DNA of 56,985 bases from Rhodopirellula sp. (GTDB lineage Bacteria > Planctomycetota > Planctomycetia > Pirellulales > Pirellulaceae), in the NCBI GenBank assembly GCA_002701385.1, contig NZVD01000055.1:8019-65003 (forward strand), written 5' to 3'. Numbering within the stretch: position 1 is the first letter of the stretch; each line of letters begins with the position of its first letter. The notes beneath the pieces are model-generated. The model ran no database searches and had not been told where the DNA came from. It saw only the letters and a program-made list of their open reading frames with translations. Shown piece by piece: positions 30,644-38,917 of this stretch. The translations under genes and the position numbers were made by a program.

Positions 30644-31036
30644 TCAGGACTTGGTGGCGACACGTAGTTGAGACCGTGCAGTTTCAACGGCACGCTCACG
30701 TAAATCAAGGTCTTCGTCGTTGTTTCCAGGCATTGCCAGAGCATCTTTGAGCTCCTGCTGCAGCGACTCGGCATCCAGATCACTTACTTCGATCACTCGG
30801 TTGGTGAGGATCGAAACGGTGTTATCCAGTACCTGGACGAATCCACCTTCGATGTAAAACCGAGATGGCCCTTCGGTACCAAGAAGAGACAGCTCTCCGT
30901 TGCCCAACCGCCCAATCATAGGGGCGTGGTCGCTCATGACACCTTTATTACCATCAAATAATGGCAGTGTAATGGACGAAGCTTCTGTTTCGACAGCGGT
31001 TTCAGCCGGAGTTACAACGATACAGTTAAGAGACAT
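30644..31036 (-). CDS. atpC: ATP synthase F1 epsilon subunit
   Basis: A 130-residue protein: LNCIVVTPAETAVETEASSITLPLFDGNKGVMSDHAPMI is the N-terminal beta-sandwich, with the hallmark GxxGVMSDHAPMIG-type stretch. The C-terminal helical hairpin (LDAESLQQELKDAL through RERAVETARSQLRVA) is present. Epsilon links the rotor to the catalytic head and can inhibit ATP hydrolysis. It is the last gene of the operon, 3 bases after atpD, followed by a strong terminator. Confidence 0.95.
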   Translation of the reverse strand: MSLNCIVVTPAETAVETEASSITLPLFDGNKGVMSDHAPMIGRLGNGELSLLGTEGPSRFYIEGGFVQVLDNTVSILTNRVIEVSDLDAESLQQELKDALAMPGNNDEDLDLRERAVETARSQLRVATKS

Positions 31037-31039
31037 GAA

Positions 31040-32527
<1,488 letters not shown>

Positions 32528-32543
32528 TTATTATTGGTTTGAT

Positions 32544-33428
32544 TTAGCTTTTCAATGCTTCCACGCCACCGATGATTTCCATGATTTCGCCAGTAATCTG
32601 AGACTGGCGGGCACGGTTGTAAGTCATCGACAGGTTGCGGATCATGTCGTCGGCGTTTTCGGTAGCACTCTTCATCGCGACCATTCGAGCGATCTGTTCG
32701 CTTACGGCTGCATCCAGGAAACACTTGAATAGATTGATACGAAAACTCATGGGTACCACTTCTTCGAGAATGCTTTCCGCAGATGGGAAGAACTCAAAAT
32801 CGGCATCTACACCGCTGTCATCAGATTCCTCGTCAGCTCCACCGACGCTTCCAAGCGGTAGTAGTGTTTCCACGACTGCGACTTGTTTTGAACTTGAGAT
32901 GAATTGTGTGTAGGCAATATCGAGTCGATCAAGTCTGCCTGCAATGAATTCATCCAGTAGACTGTCCGCGATTTCTTTGACTTCTTCAAAGAGAGGTTCG
33001 TCTTCGAATTGGGTATAGGATTCGTCTGCTGAGTAGCCTCGGAATTCCAGGTTGGTAATACCGCGTTTACCCGAGACGATGAGTTTCGTGTTGTCGTAAG
33101 TTTCTGATAGACGATCGAAGTGCTTCATGGTTTCACGGACGATATTTCCGTTGTAACCGCCGCAAAGTCCACGATTGGAAGTTAATACGATCAGCGCCGC
33201 ATTGTCTGTGGCCGTTCGCTCTTCCAGCAAAGGATGCTGCACTTCCGTGCCGCTTTTGGCCAGACTGGCAACCACTTCGGTGATTCGCTTCGTGTACGAT
33301 GTGGCCGCGGTCGCTCGATCCATTGCTTTCTTAAATCGAGCGGTTGCGATCAATTCCATCGTTCGCGTAATCTTGCGAATATTACGAACTGATTTTCTTC
33401 GTTTGTCTAATGCCCTGGCATTTGCCAT
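32544..33428 (-). CDS. atpG: ATP synthase F1 gamma subunit
   Basis: A 294-residue protein. The N-terminal coiled-coil helix (ANARALDKRRKSVRNIRKITRTMELIA) and the C-terminal helix (SATENADDMIRNLSMTYNRARQSQITGEIMEI) are the two most conserved parts of gamma. The Rossmann-like middle has LTSNRGLCGGYNGNI. An acidic insert (ADEESDDSGVDADFEFFPS) near residues 198-216 is somewhat longer than in E. coli. It forms the rotating central stalk. It lies 61 bases after atpA. Confidence 0.96.
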   Translation of the reverse strand: MANARALDKRRKSVRNIRKITRTMELIATARFKKAMDRATAATSYTKRITEVVASLAKSGTEVQHPLLEERTATDNAALIVLTSNRGLCGGYNGNIVRETMKHFDRLSETYDNTKLIVSGKRGITNLEFRGYSADESYTQFEDEPLFEEVKEIADSLLDEFIAGRLDRLDIAYTQFISSSKQVAVVETLLPLGSVGGADEESDDSGVDADFEFFPSAESILEEVVPMSFRINLFKCFLDAAVSEQIARMVAMKSATENADDMIRNLSMTYNRARQSQITGEIMEIIGGVEALKS

Positions 33429-33489
33429 AGGATTTTTCCTGTCACTTTATTGGTTCAAGTAAAACCTCAAATCGACGTGTGCTTGCAGT

Positions 33490-35115
33490 CTACTCTTCAG
33501 TGGACTCTTCTGCACCTTCTTCATTTGCTTTTTCAGCTTCCGCTTCTGGAGTTTCCGCTTCGGCGGCAGCTTCTTCAGCAGAATTATCTTCTACTGCGGA
33601 TTCTTCAGCCTGGTAGCTTTCGGCTAAGCTCTTGAATTCGTTAATGGCACCGATGAGTTCATCTTCATCTCGAATGTTACCATCGTTGCTAATAGCATCG
33701 AGAATCTCAGGTTTTTGGTCTCGCAGGAATTCCAACAGCTGAGTTTCGAATTCAGCGACATCGTTGACGTCGACTTCGTCGAAGTGGCCGTTTACACCTG
33801 CATAAATCGAGCAGACTTGTTCGGCAACTGGCAGCGGAGCGTACTGTCCCTGTTTGAGTAGTTCAACCATTCGGTATCCTCGGTCCAGCTGACGCTGTGA
33901 AGCGGGGTCGAGATCTGTTCCCAGTTGAGCAAATGCTTCCAGTTCACGGAAGGCAGCCAGGTCAAGTCGAAGACCACCGGCAACACCTTTCATGGCTTTA
34001 ATCTGAGCGGCACCACCTACCCGGGAAACCGAGACACCGACGTTCATCGCAGGACGAATACCTGAGAAGAATAGGTCGGGTTGTAGGTAAATCTGACCAT
34101 CGGTAATCGAAATGACGTTGGTCGGGATATAAGCAGAAACTTCCCCTTCAAGTGTTTCAATAATTGGAAGCGAAGTGAGTGAACCTGCGCCCAATTCGTC
34201 ACTTAGCTTACTGGAGCGTTCCAGCAGGCGGCTGTGACAGTAGAACACGTCACCAGGGAACGCTTCACGTCCTGGAGGACGTCGCATCAACAGTGACAAT
34301 TCACGATAGGCGTTGGCCTGCTTGGAAAGGTCATCGTAGACGATCAAGGTATGTTCACCACGATACATGAAGAACTCGGCCATCGAAGTACCTGCATAAG
34401 GAGCAATATACTGTAGCGGGGCAGGCGCACTGGCACCGGAGACGATGACTGTCGTGTAATCCATAGCTCCCTGTTCTTCCAGAATCTGGATCACACCGGC
34501 TACGGAAGAGTCTTTCTGGCCTACGGCTACGTAGAAACATTTCACGCCTGAACCCTTTTGGTTCAGGATGGTATCGATAGCAATGGCGGTTTTACCAGTT
34601 TTACGGTCACCAATGATCAATTCACGCTGCCCACGTCCAATCGGAGTCATGGAGTCGATCGCTTTGATTCCAGTCTGCAATGGTTCACCGACTGGCTGGC
34701 GTTCTGCCACTCCAGGAGCTCGGGCTTCCACGACTCGCGTGTCTGTTGAGTTAACAGGCCCTTTTCCATCGAGTGGATTTCCCAGCGGATCGAGAACTCG
34801 ACCAATCACAGCATCGCCAACAGGTACGGACAAGAGGCTACCGAGTGCTTTGACTTCGTCACCTTCTTTAATCTTCAGATAATCACCAAGAATGATGACC
34901 CCGACACTGTTTTCTTCCAGGTTAAATGCCAGGCCGTTAACGCCGCCGGGGAATTCGACCATTTCACCGGCTTTGACACCGGCGAGACCGTAAACTCGGG
35001 CGATCCCGTCACCAACTTCCAGGACGGTTCCGACTTCGCGAACGTCCAACTGACTTTCGTATTGCTCAATTTCCTGTTGCAATACGGACGCAATTTCGTC
35101 TGCGTTGAATTTCAT
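33490..35115 (-). CDS. atpA: ATP synthase F1 alpha subunit
   Basis: A 541-residue protein. The P-loop is GDRKTGKT, the Lys variant also seen in actinobacteria. Other signatures are [39 protein letters not shown] and [12 protein letters not shown]. It is about 30 residues longer than usual because of an acidic Ala/Glu-rich tail ([17 protein letters not shown] region), which looks disordered. Alpha holds the non-catalytic nucleotide sites. It lies 50 bases after atpH. Confidence 0.97.
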
Positions 35116-35165
35116 GGAAGGTATTCCTTACGTTTTACTTATTAAAAAGGTGTTCCTGTTGACCG

Positions 35166-35798
35166 TTAGGCATCGGCTGAAAATCGATCAGTCGCCAAAC
35201 GGATTTCTCGGATTGTATTGTCTCTGGCCGACTGTCGAACTTTCTCCAGTCGGTTGGCTACACTGCTGTCGTATACCGTGTCACCAACTCGGATTAAACT
35301 GCCTCCGATTAAATCGGAATCGACATCGAGTACCAGTTCAACCGTAGCGTCAAAGGCTTTACTCAGTGCTGCTCGCATTGAGTCCTGTGTCGCCTGATCA
35401 AGTTCGGTGGCTGTTGTGACCTGAACTTCGAGCTGTCCCTGCTGAGCAAACAGTTGTTCTCGGAAGCTTGCATGGATCACACGCAGGCAATCGAGTCGAC
35501 CGTGCTTGGAAGCGACTTTAAGGAAGTTCAAAAATGTCTTAGTAGTCTTTCCCTGGAAAGCCTTATCCAGAATGCTCTCTTTCTCTGCATGAGAAATTCG
35601 TGGCGAGCTTAGGATCGACTCGAATTGAGCATTGGCGTTCAGGACATCGTCAATCAGACTTTGAAATTCCGCTAACACGTCCTGAGTCTCTCCAGCTGCA
35701 TCTGCAGCATTCAAAAGAGAGGCAGCATAGACTTCCCCGACCTGCTGTTTGCCGGTATCGAGTGTGGTTTCGTGTTTTGGTGCTTCCGGTTCAGCCAT
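35166..35798 (-). CDS. atpH: ATP synthase F1 delta subunit
   Basis: A 210-residue protein with the delta pattern: an N-terminal helical bundle (VYAASLLNAADAAGETQDVLAEFQSLI, NAQFESILSSPRISHAEKESIL) and a C-terminal domain ending in VLDVDSDLIGGSLIRVGDTVYDSSVANRLEKVR, the typical OSCP/delta end. It joins the peripheral b stalk to the top of F1. It begins 2 bases after the atpF stop, so the two are tightly coupled. Confidence 0.95.
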   Translation of the reverse strand: MAEPEAPKHETTLDTGKQQVGEVYAASLLNAADAAGETQDVLAEFQSLIDDVLNANAQFESILSSPRISHAEKESILDKAFQGKTTKTFLNFLKVASKHGRLDCLRVIHASFREQLFAQQGQLEVQVTTATELDQATQDSMRAALSKAFDATVELVLDVDSDLIGGSLIRVGDTVYDSSVANRLEKVRQSARDNTIREIRLATDRFSADA

Positions 35799-35800
35799 GG

Positions 35801-36619
35801 TTAACCTTCCTGGATGTTGTCCAGAGTTTCCTTAATCAGTGTCTGGTGGTCGGAGGCATTCAGTTCTTTACTGACGATCTTGGCTGCCAGAGCGACAGCG
35901 ATATCGGCTGATTTTTCAGCGACTTCCTGTAATGCCGCATTCTTGGCAATATCGATGTCATTTAATGCCCGATCTCGTTCAGCCGTTGCCGCATCCTGAG
36001 CTTCCTGCACAATGCGATCTTTGGTGGCTTCCGCATCGCGTCGCCCTTCGGCAACAATTTCATTGGCTTCCTGAGCGGCTGCTGCGATCTTGGATTCGTA
36101 TTCTTCCAGAAGACGTTCTGCTTTACTGGCACTTCGACGAGCATCTTCAATGTGGTCAATGATCCCCTGTTCACGTTCTGCCAAAGCATTCTTAATTGGG
36201 TTCCAAGCAGCAACACGGAGGATGATCAGCATCAAAATGAAGACGACCAAGGTATAGATCGCCATGTCTTTCTTGAATTCACCTGAGTCGTTTAGGTGGT
36301 GGCTGGCATTGGCATGAGAAAGATCGGTGTGATCGTGGTGGCCATGTCCATCTCCATGTCCATCTCCATGCTCATCGCCATGTTCGCCAGCATGTTCGTC
36401 GTCATGATGTCCGTCTTCATCATGGTCGTGACCTTCATGATCGTCGTGGTCTTCTTCATGGCCTTCCTCGTGCCCTTCAGCGCCATCACTGTCAGCAGCC
36501 GTTTCTGCTTCCGGTTTTGACTCGCCATCGGCAGCGACTACAGGCATGGATGCTGTGCCAATCAGGAGCAACAGAGCAAAGCTCCAACGAATCCAGCTTT
36601 CTTGCATAATCTTGTTCAC
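35801..36619 (-). CDS. atpF: ATP synthase Fo b subunit with signal peptide and His/Asp-rich N-terminal extension
   Basis: A 272-residue protein, far longer than the usual 155-175. Residues 1-30 look like a cleavable signal peptide (FALLLLIGTASMPVVAA). Residues about 45-110 are extremely rich in His, Asp, Glu and Gly, with 19 histidines between 50 and 108. A single membrane helix follows (IYTLVVFILMLIILRVAAW, about 121-139), then the normal b stalk coiled coil (NALAEREQGIIDHIEDARRS and onward). Since the b helix enters from outside, the His-rich part should lie on the periplasmic side and may bind metal ions or protons; this is inference. It starts at GTG with GAGGT upstream. The atpE gene normally found before it is missing. 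Confidence 0.94.
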   Translation of the reverse strand: MNKIMQESWIRWSFALLLLIGTASMPVVAADGESKPEAETAADSDGAEGHEEGHEEDHDDHEGHDHDEDGHHDDEHAGEHGDEHGDGHGDGHGHHDHTDLSHANASHHLNDSGEFKKDMAIYTLVVFILMLIILRVAAWNPIKNALAEREQGIIDHIEDARRSASKAERLLEEYESKIAAAAQEANEIVAEGRRDAEATKDRIVQEAQDAATAERDRALNDIDIAKNAALQEVAEKSADIAVALAAKIVSKELNASDHQTLIKETLDNIQEG

Positions 36620-36697
36620 GTTGTTACCTCGAGTTTCGTGAATCTAACTTTTATGTGATTAACGAATTGATTTGTTAATTAGTTGTATCGATTTGAT
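36620..36697 (-). other. atpB-atpF junction lacking atpE
   Basis: Only 78 bases lie between the atpB stop and the atpF start. They are AT rich and end in the atpF ribosome site. The c-subunit gene, usually 70-100 codons, is expected here and does not fit. I also saw no c-subunit-like protein (two hydrophobic helices with Gly repeats and a membrane carboxylate) elsewhere in the window. Confidence 0.85.
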
Positions 36698-37969
36698 TTA
36701 GTGGTCGTGCATTGCTGCACCAATAAATAGTGCACTCAGCAGTGTGAAAACATACGCTTGTAGGAATGCGACAAATAATTCCAACATTCCAATGCAGGTA
36801 GCTCCAATCATCGCTGCTGGGGCAACTCCCCAGTAAATGCTTCCGTCAGCGGCAGCTATGGCCATACCCATAATGGACAAAAGCACCATATGGCCAGCGA
36901 CCATATTGGCTAACAAACGAATGGCTAAAACAGCATGCTTAATAAACAGGCCGATAACTTCAATCACCCATAGCATTGGTTTGATGATAATCCCAATGGA
37001 TATGTGTAAATCCATGGATGGCAGTTGTGCCAACCAAAAACCTACCGGACCGTGCATAATGCTTCCGGAGATTAGCGATGTTAGGAAGATGGCGACGGCC
37101 AATCCCCCAGTCACTGCAAACGTTCCGGTGGGTGATCCGATAAACGGGATGAGCCCGAACAGATTGCAGGTCAGTATGAAAAAGAAGATGGTCCACAGGA
37201 CAGGTGTGATTTTGTCCGCTTTCGTGAACGTATCAGGCTTGTCTTCATCGGTGCCATGGCCGTGATCGTCATCATGGTGATCATCATGTCCATGGTGGAA
37301 ATCAGCATCGCTTCCAATGGATGGGCGAACCACTTCGTCCCGGATAAACAGGAGGAAGGTTTCCAGGAAATTAGCCAGAGTTCCTTTGGCTGGTTTTCCG
37401 CCTGAGATCGATTTGCCTAATCTTGCAAATAGTAGGACGACGACAGAAACGACGACCAATTCAACCAACATGAATTTGGAAACGCAAAAGCCTGATTCGG
37501 CTTCATGTAGATTTCTTAGTTCACCACCAAATGGCTGCGGAATGATGATTTTGCCACTGAGGTGCTTGTTATATTTTGCCAGAAGTCCATGCTCAGACCA
37601 CTTGTCAGCGACTTCACCATCTAACCACTTAGTATCCCCGAGCACTTCCTGTTGAACGGACTTGCGAAATGAAGCAGGAATTTCTTTGTGTTCGGTTTCG
37701 GTGGACTGTTCTTCTTCGTAGTAGACGTCATACGGAGCATGGTGGTGCTTAGGGCTCCAATCCTGCCATGCCTGCACAGATTGTTCGGCGGACTTTTCAC
37801 CGACGGGATATTCAGCAGCCAGTAGCTCAGCTTCAGCCAACTGAACAGTCGGGTCCAGTTTTAGCCAAACTGAAGGAAATTCAGACGGCTTGGTGTAGCT
37901 GCGTGGGAATGCAAATTTGGGGACTTCGAAGAAGTATGCATCTTTAATATGGAGTGCTGGGTCGGCCAT
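36698..37969 (-). CDS. atpB: ATP synthase Fo a subunit with long N-terminal extension and His-rich loop
   Basis: A 423-residue protein; typical a subunits have 240-290. Residues 1-160 are a mostly polar extension before the first membrane helix (about 164-184). Residues 221-243 form a His/Asp-rich insert (FHHGHDDHHDDDHGHG) between helices 1 and 2. The rest is a normal a subunit: the essential Arg is Arg351 (AIRLLANMVAGH), with His360 and Glu397 at the positions of E. coli Glu219 and His245, the swapped pairing seen in mitochondria and many bacteria. It forms the two ion half-channels against the c-ring. It starts right at the end of the atpI-like gene. Confidence 0.95.
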   Translation of the reverse strand: MADPALHIKDAYFFEVPKFAFPRSYTKPSEFPSVWLKLDPTVQLAEAELLAAEYPVGEKSAEQSVQAWQDWSPKHHHAPYDVYYEEEQSTETEHKEIPASFRKSVQQEVLGDTKWLDGEVADKWSEHGLLAKYNKHLSGKIIIPQPFGGELRNLHEAESGFCVSKFMLVELVVVSVVVLLFARLGKSISGGKPAKGTLANFLETFLLFIRDEVVRPSIGSDADFHHGHDDHHDDDHGHGTDEDKPDTFTKADKITPVLWTIFFFILTCNLFGLIPFIGSPTGTFAVTGGLAVAIFLTSLISGSIMHGPVGFWLAQLPSMDLHISIGIIIKPMLWVIEVIGLFIKHAVLAIRLLANMVAGHMVLLSIMGMAIAAADGSIYWGVAPAAMIGATCIGMLELFVAFLQAYVFTLLSALFIGAAMHDH

Positions 37970-38434
37970 TTAGATGTCTGTCTTTGTATTCTGGGTACTG
38001 TCTTGTGATTTGATTAACTGCACACCCAATATGGTGTCCACAATTAATGCCAATAGGAAAAAACCTAGTGTGAAATACATAATATGTGCATTTCGCCATT
38101 GCTCATTCCCCTGCTGTAGCAAAAATGCTCCAGCCATCGGAATAAACATCCGGAACAACATCCCTGCCAGCAAACCGCTTACAGCGTTCTCCGCACCGCG
38201 GAGGTACATAGGCGGTATCAGCCCCAGGACAGATCCCAACCAACACAGAAAAGCTGCGATCCCAGCAGCCTTCATTTCCATGTCAGTAAACTCACGGTAT
38301 CCGTACCATGCTACTGCAGTGAATGCTAAGCCAAGAACGATGGTGATTATCACCAACGGTTTCCAATGAAACCGAACAGGTGGTAATTCAACCGACTCCG
38401 CCTTGTCTGACTCGGACGACTTGTTTTCGCTCAC
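37970..38434 (-). CDS. AtpI-like membrane protein of the ATP synthase operon
   Basis: A 154-residue protein with about four membrane spans (PLVIITIVLGLAFTAVAWYGY, AAGIAAFLCWLGSVLGLIPP, AVSGLLAGMLFRMFIPMAGAFLL and MYFTLGFFLLALIVDTILGVQLI). Position between the atpZ-like gene and atpB, size and topology suit the AtpI role, which in other bacteria assists c-ring assembly or magnesium supply. Sequence similarity to AtpI is not strong by eye, so the name is by context. It lies 14 bases after the upstream gene and directly abuts atpB. Confidence 0.6.
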   Translation of the reverse strand: MSENKSSESDKAESVELPPVRFHWKPLVIITIVLGLAFTAVAWYGYREFTDMEMKAAGIAAFLCWLGSVLGLIPPMYLRGAENAVSGLLAGMLFRMFIPMAGAFLLQQGNEQWRNAHIMYFTLGFFLLALIVDTILGVQLIKSQDSTQNTKTDI

Positions 38435-38448
38435 CGATTTGAGCTCCT

Positions 38449-38721
38449 TCAGTTTTCCGATTCGTTGGAGTGTTCTCGGGAGGCTGAATCGGCCACTTTA
38501 ATTAGTTGCCATAGACCCAATGGAGGGCCAAGAATCCAGCCAATAACCATCATATACGATGTCTCGTAATGTGTGTCGAGGTAGGCCCCACCAATTCCTG
38601 GAAGAACCATTATCACGACACATGTAATCACACGCGACAGTACGTCGTAGGCCTCGGACATTGCCGAACGCTTGGGACGCTTCGGATATTCTGGTTTTTC
38701 AAAGTGAGGTAATTCGACCAT
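38449..38721 (-). CDS. AtpZ/AtpI-type small membrane protein
   Basis: A 90-residue protein with two membrane helices (VLSRVITCVVIMVLPGIGGAYLD and YMMVIGWILGPPLGLWQLIKVA), the size and topology of AtpZ-like proteins at the head of atp operons. The helices are joined by a short polar loop (THYETSY). In Bacillus AtpZ and AtpI are linked to divalent cation transport for the synthase. It is the first gene of the operon, 34 bases downstream of the candidate -10 element. Confidence 0.7.
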   Translation of the reverse strand: MVELPHFEKPEYPKRPKRSAMSEAYDVLSRVITCVVIMVLPGIGGAYLDTHYETSYMMVIGWILGPPLGLWQLIKVADSASREHSNESEN

Positions 38722-38754
38722 CGGTCTAACCTGACGGAGGGTGGTTATTACCTA

Positions 38755-38783
38755 ATCATATATAAATAGATAACAACAGTTAA
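38755..38783 (-). promoter_or_regulatory. candidate sigma-70 promoter of the ATP synthase operon
   Basis: On the minus strand, TTAACT (38778-38783) and TATGAT (38755-38760) are 17 bases apart, giving a leader of roughly 27 bases before the first gene. An 8-bp inverted repeat (GGTGGTTA at 38740-38747, TAACCACC at 38781-38788) encloses the region. A second, weaker candidate, TTGACC with TATAAA 15 bases on, lies further upstream. Confidence 0.45.
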
Positions 38784-38807
38784 CCACCGGAGACTGGTCT
38801 ACTAATC

Positions 38808-38827
38808 CGTAGTATCCGGATACTACG
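38808..38827. promoter_or_regulatory. perfect 20-bp palindrome upstream of the ATP synthase operon
   Basis: The half-site CGTAGTATCC is followed directly by its exact reverse complement. Its centre is about 70 bases before the predicted transcription start of the atp operon, where activators often bind. It could instead be a hairpin in a plus-strand transcript. Confidence 0.6.
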
Positions 38828-38917
38828 CCAAAGTTTTACAGTTTCACTGGCTTACCGAATTCAACATCACTTAAAGCCGCTTAATTTATACTCCCTAGAG
38901 CATATGGTCAACTAACC

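Follow-up and report, generated by a model that had tools for sequence, protein, structure and literature searches.

Where is the c subunit of an ATP synthase encoded when its gene is missing from an atp operon that carries the genes for all other subunits? This question is raised by the window analysed here, a stretch of 56,985 nucleotides from Rhodopirellula sp. (family Pirellulaceae, phylum Planctomycetota; assembly GCA_002701385.1, contig NZVD01000055.1). On its minus strand, ORFs together with Pfam and NCBIfam profiles give an operon of the gene order Z-I-B-F-H-A-G-D-C (Table 1). A preliminary description of the window had reported that atpE is missing between atpB and atpF, and this is borne out by our analysis.

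Table 1 Features of the atp locus in the window, with the evidence for each
Feature	Position	Strand	Evidence
ATP synthase operon, atpZ-like to atpC	30644-38721	minus	
Operon promoter-like boxes, GTTGACC then ATAAATT	38883-38912	minus	11/11 genomes aligned
atpZ-like	38449-38721	minus	PF09527 20.4 bits, under the cut-off of 26.6; similar ORFs at the same place in relatives
atpI-like membrane protein	37970-38434	minus	position; similar ORFs at the same place in relatives
atpB, subunit a (423 aa), with a long N-terminal part and conserved Arg351	36698-37969	minus	PF00119, E 6.9e-42
atpB-atpF junction without atpE, 78 bases, 29% G+C	36620-36697	minus	
atpF, subunit b, N-terminal segment His/Asp/Glu-rich	35801-36619	minus	PF00430
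atpH, subunit delta	35166-35798	minus	PF00213
atpA, subunit alpha	33490-35115	minus	PF00006, PF00306
atpG, subunit gamma	32544-33428	minus	PF00231
atpD, subunit beta	31040-32479	minus	PF00006, PF02874
atpC, subunit epsilon	30644-31036	minus	PF02823; TIGR01216 67.5 bits, cut-off 67.25

The ORFs lie where the preliminary description placed them, and Pfam supports its naming of atpB, atpF, atpH, atpA, atpG, atpD and atpC. Its two leading genes are confirmed only in part: the profile match of the atpZ-like gene stays below the cut-off, and the atpI-like gene, recognised by its position and its counterparts in relatives, has no match to the ATP-synt_I family among the Pfam profiles. Arg351 of the a subunit, described earlier as intact, is invariant in all eight a subunits of our alignment (A1). 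The long N-terminal part of this subunit is common to the same eight rows, and its best PF00119 match starts only at residue 250; some members of the family have shorter a subunits (e.g., 315 aa in locus L084). His/Asp/Glu-rich stretches occur at 36280-36490 (N-terminal part of subunit b) and 37240-37310 (a subunit). They presumably lie outside the membrane and could possibly serve in metal binding or buffering.

The junction itself holds no convincing remnant of a c gene. A c-subunit profile run against the six frames of 36501-36800 gave a best E value of 0.43 with a negative score, the only hit with E ≤ 1 that it gave anywhere in the window was at chance level (E 0.78), and short-word blastn over 35501-38800 found nothing above chance. 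The same arrangement is present in related genomes. Among the nine other loci that we read (G001-G008 and G012), atpB and atpF are separated by 56 to 122 bases without atpE in eight; at the ninth, G004, the atpF ORF is overlong and the gap was not measured. A gap of 56 bases, also without atpE, was found in G100. The nearest genome, G006, has a gap of exactly the same length as the window (78 bases), and its flanking atpB and atpF products are 97.4 and 96.7% identical to those of the window.

A PF00137 search of the genome to which the window belongs (G000; 4.89 Mb in 100 contigs, 99.19% complete) found one gene over the cut-off, on the plus strand of contig C11 (346380-346556; 45.8 bits, cut-off 24), while the atp operon is on contig C6. 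The only other place matched (12.3 bits) is below the cut-off and contains two stops. This orphan atpE (L063:8279-8584) encodes 101 aa counted from its GTG start and looks intact; its product has two helices, an RQPE loop, a glutamate in helix 2 and, by eye, a signal-like N terminus shared with operonic relatives. It scores 47.8 bits with the F-type c model TIGR01260 (cut-off 43.95) and 23.4 bits with the N-ATPase c model TIGR03322 (cut-off 130.85). The protein aligns with the solved chloroplast and cyanobacterial c-rings, with E83 opposite their glutamate. E83 and R63-Q64-P65-E66, which we take to be the helix-2 carboxylate and the polar RQP loop, respectively, are invariant in all 13 c proteins aligned. 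The orphan c protein is 66–68% identical to the operonic c proteins of L081, L082 and L085, and 50–53% identical to those of L202 and L084. The orphan gene encodes an apparently normal F-type c subunit. With it, the genome has the full F1Fo gene set (a, b, delta, alpha, gamma, beta, epsilon and c). The N-ATPase a-subunit model TIGR03306 gave the a subunit 36.5 bits against a cut-off of 302.1. Judged by sequence, the enzyme would be an ordinary F1Fo ATP synthase assembled with the orphan-encoded c subunit.

The orphan atpE lies downstream of genes for an ABC binding protein, an ATPase and a permease on the same strand (PF13407, PF02653), whose best NCBIfam names are of the ribose type, all under the cut-offs. 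An SMP-30/gluconolactonase-like gene (PF08450) and an MFS gene (PF07690) follow downstream, and we recognised no gene of a further rotary ATPase next to the orphan. The sugar-type permease is directly upstream of atpE in all 10 genomes in which atpE is apart from atpB; the downstream neighbour is the SMP-30-like gene in seven of them, an MFS gene in two (G003 and G007) and the contig end in one (G006). We found no empty target site: the approximately 1.5 kb alongside a similar permease holds no SMP-30 gene in any of nine relatives (L098-L106), and these permeases, which are 42–50% identical to the neighbour of the orphan, may not be its true counterparts.

The DNA before the orphan contains conserved signals. 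A GGTTGAC box is located 165–199 bases 5′ of the start codon in 10/10 genomes, a TA box follows 17–18 bases past TTGAC[AG] in the nine checked by script, and an AGGAGAT Shine-Dalgarno sequence precedes the GTG start in all 10. Downstream, a hairpin with a T run (−16.4 to −23.7 kcal/mol) is present in each of the nine genomes with sequence there. A consensus scanner found no sigma-70 sites around atpE (shuffle mean 1.1) and three terminator-like sites (shuffle mean 0.7), two of them inside the gene and the downstream hairpin on the minus strand only; we read the miss of the plus-strand stem as due to the stem running into the T tract. The case for a promoter of atpE is therefore entirely one of conservation. 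The main operon has promoter-like boxes of its own, in the form TATAAATT in 9 of the 11 genomes aligned. A conserved CGGCTT stretch lies right after these boxes in most of the 11, and the interval between the boxes and atpZ (38722-38882, approximately 160 bases; 160–180 across the 11 genomes) could be a regulatory leader. We take two housekeeping-type promoters to drive the two units, with c supplied in trans, and the orphan atpE most likely forms its own transcription unit.

Its place right after the permease, on the same strand in every one of the 10 genomes, could also mean that atpE closes the sugar ABC transporter operon, which would couple the supply of c to sugar uptake. However, the two genes are parted by 219–252 intergenic bases that hold the conserved GGTTGAC box in each genome, and it seems unlikely that an essential, many-copy subunit would depend on a sugar operon. 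We give this reading a small chance. Read-through from the permease may add to transcription from atpE's own predicted promoter. We consider it very unlikely that the detachment of atpE let the c number or the Fo-to-F1 ratio be set independently of the operon, for example by carbohydrate supply; if true, relocation at a sugar transporter operon would itself have altered the regulation of energy coupling.

The separation of atpE from atpB is found in 10 of 10 genomes with both genes in two genera, eight in the genus of the window and two in another; these genomes are in several or many contigs, and "elsewhere" here means another contig, with no distance implied. Within a set of 60 relatives, 57 genomes have both genes, and c adjoins an atpB in 48 and is apart in nine. 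The nine exceptions are G000-G003 and G005-G008, which are all genomes of the window's genus with both genes, and G012 of the other genus; G100, a second genome of the latter genus, is the tenth. The PF00137 search found no c gene in G004 (69% complete), which has atpB, and G047 and G058 gave neither a PF00137 nor a PF00119 gene. In a phylum sample of 88 genomes, c is beside atpB in 82 of the 83 with both genes, and the exception is G000. Both pairings were made by eye from PF00137 and PF00119 places, counting any c within approximately 400 bases of any atpB with all enzyme types pooled. In G016 and G182, the sole atpB found is a short one of 277 and 239 aa, respectively, possibly of N-type; with both genomes left out, the counts become 47/56 and 81/82.

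For the best 80 of 555 atpB loci of named genomes, c adjoins atpB in 77, including L157, whose contig ends in a partial c 232 bases after atpB; the c profile used here comprised 23 rows, of which at least two were wrong ORFs, and left out 8 of 31 loci. The remaining three are L108 and L109, which lack c beside atpB and which we equate with the contigs concerned of G006 and G012, and L147, which ends too early to judge. G084, G063 and G100 were picked among the matches listed in a family-wide pairing of 149 genomes, from which no count was taken. G063 was dropped as a further separation, its atpB ending one contig and its atpE starting another, i.e., a contig break. In G084, which belongs to another genus, atpE (L202:7542-7847) heads the operon in the order E-Z-I-B-F-H-A-G-D, a second departure of atpE from the atpB-atpF junction within the same family. 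Like the window, G084 has no atpE between atpB and atpF (30-base gap); unlike the window, its atpE is still at the operon, approximately 290 bases upstream of atpZ, and it falls outside the group of the two genera in the tree described below.

These comparisons bear on two other proposals of the preliminary description. One was that the assembly had lost atpE from the junction by collapse or a gap, in which case the gene on C11 would belong to something else or to a contaminant. The genome is indeed a draft in 100 contigs; however, the separation and the orphan's surroundings recur throughout both genera, and G006 has the same gap between nearly identical flanks, so that independent assemblies refute this proposal and leave it next to no probability. 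The other, that the enzyme borrows its c-ring from another locus, which we read as that of a second rotary ATPase in the cell, could draw on the extra c genes of other family members, which we infer to be N-type or V-type, but is refuted for this genome, and just as close to impossible, by its single c gene over the cut-off in an assembly of 99.19% completeness, by the closeness of that gene's product to the operonic F-type c of three relatives and its failure with the N-ATPase model, and by the lack of any other recognised rotary ATPase gene alongside.

An ATP-synthase tree of 32 genomes groups the two genera together with 100% ultrafast bootstrap. It was built from AtpA, AtpB, AtpH and AtpG and midpoint-rooted, and is an enzyme tree, not a species tree; it leaves out G001 and G087, in which genes are lacking, and takes in G004, for which the search gave no c gene. 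The tree suggests that atpE would have left the atpB-atpF junction once, in the common ancestor of the two uncultured Pirellulaceae genera, and a single relocation in that ancestor is the simplest reading. The operonic atpE genes of G010, G015 and G014 lie between atpB and atpF, unlike the orphan, but resemble it in c identity (66–68%), the AGGAG ribosome site and the GTGAACAA start. Because the ribosome site and first codons are alike, the gene seems to have moved together with its translation start.

We propose a relocation of atpE based on these results. In two genera, the only c gene over the cut-off is outside the operon, with the same permease upstream and surroundings that recur among the genomes, and the earlier suggestion that atpE had moved elsewhere holds. 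As its conserved flanking sequence suggests, the orphan would be a single-gene transcription unit that has a sigma-70-like promoter, a ribosome-binding site and a terminator of its own. The c subunits would then be made in trans, form a ring in the membrane and combine with the a, b and F1 subunits that the main operon supplies. What changed would be the gene layout and probably also how the excess of c over the other subunits is set. We hold this explanation as a whole, with one move, a unit of its own, c in trans and an ordinary enzyme, to be very probable. The retained AtpI-like gene, which was said to make the absence of atpE stranger, is unsurprising because a c-ring remains to be assembled.

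In epsilon-proteobacteria, splits of the atp locus on either side of the c gene, from a and from b, are reported in PMC4154653, which gives planctomycetes as unsplit. The locus described here is of the same kind in that the c gene stands apart from both its usual neighbours, the a and b genes, and the enzyme is otherwise complete. It is unlike the epsilon-proteobacterial loci in that it belongs to Planctomycetota and only atpE is gone while the rest of the operon is together. Titles and abstract openings of the literature searched contained no description of a detached atpE in Planctomycetota. Other bacteria are thus already known to have a detached c gene, and here this layout is an inherited rearrangement in Planctomycetota.

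The finding corrects the picture of unsplit planctomycete ATP synthase loci, as given in PMC4154653. It adds what seems to be a one-time change, limited to two genera, in a bacterial operon that is well conserved. It also warns that an operon without atpE is no evidence of a broken enzyme. With atpE off the common message, the two genera provide a natural test of how a cell still maintains many copies of c for each enzyme.
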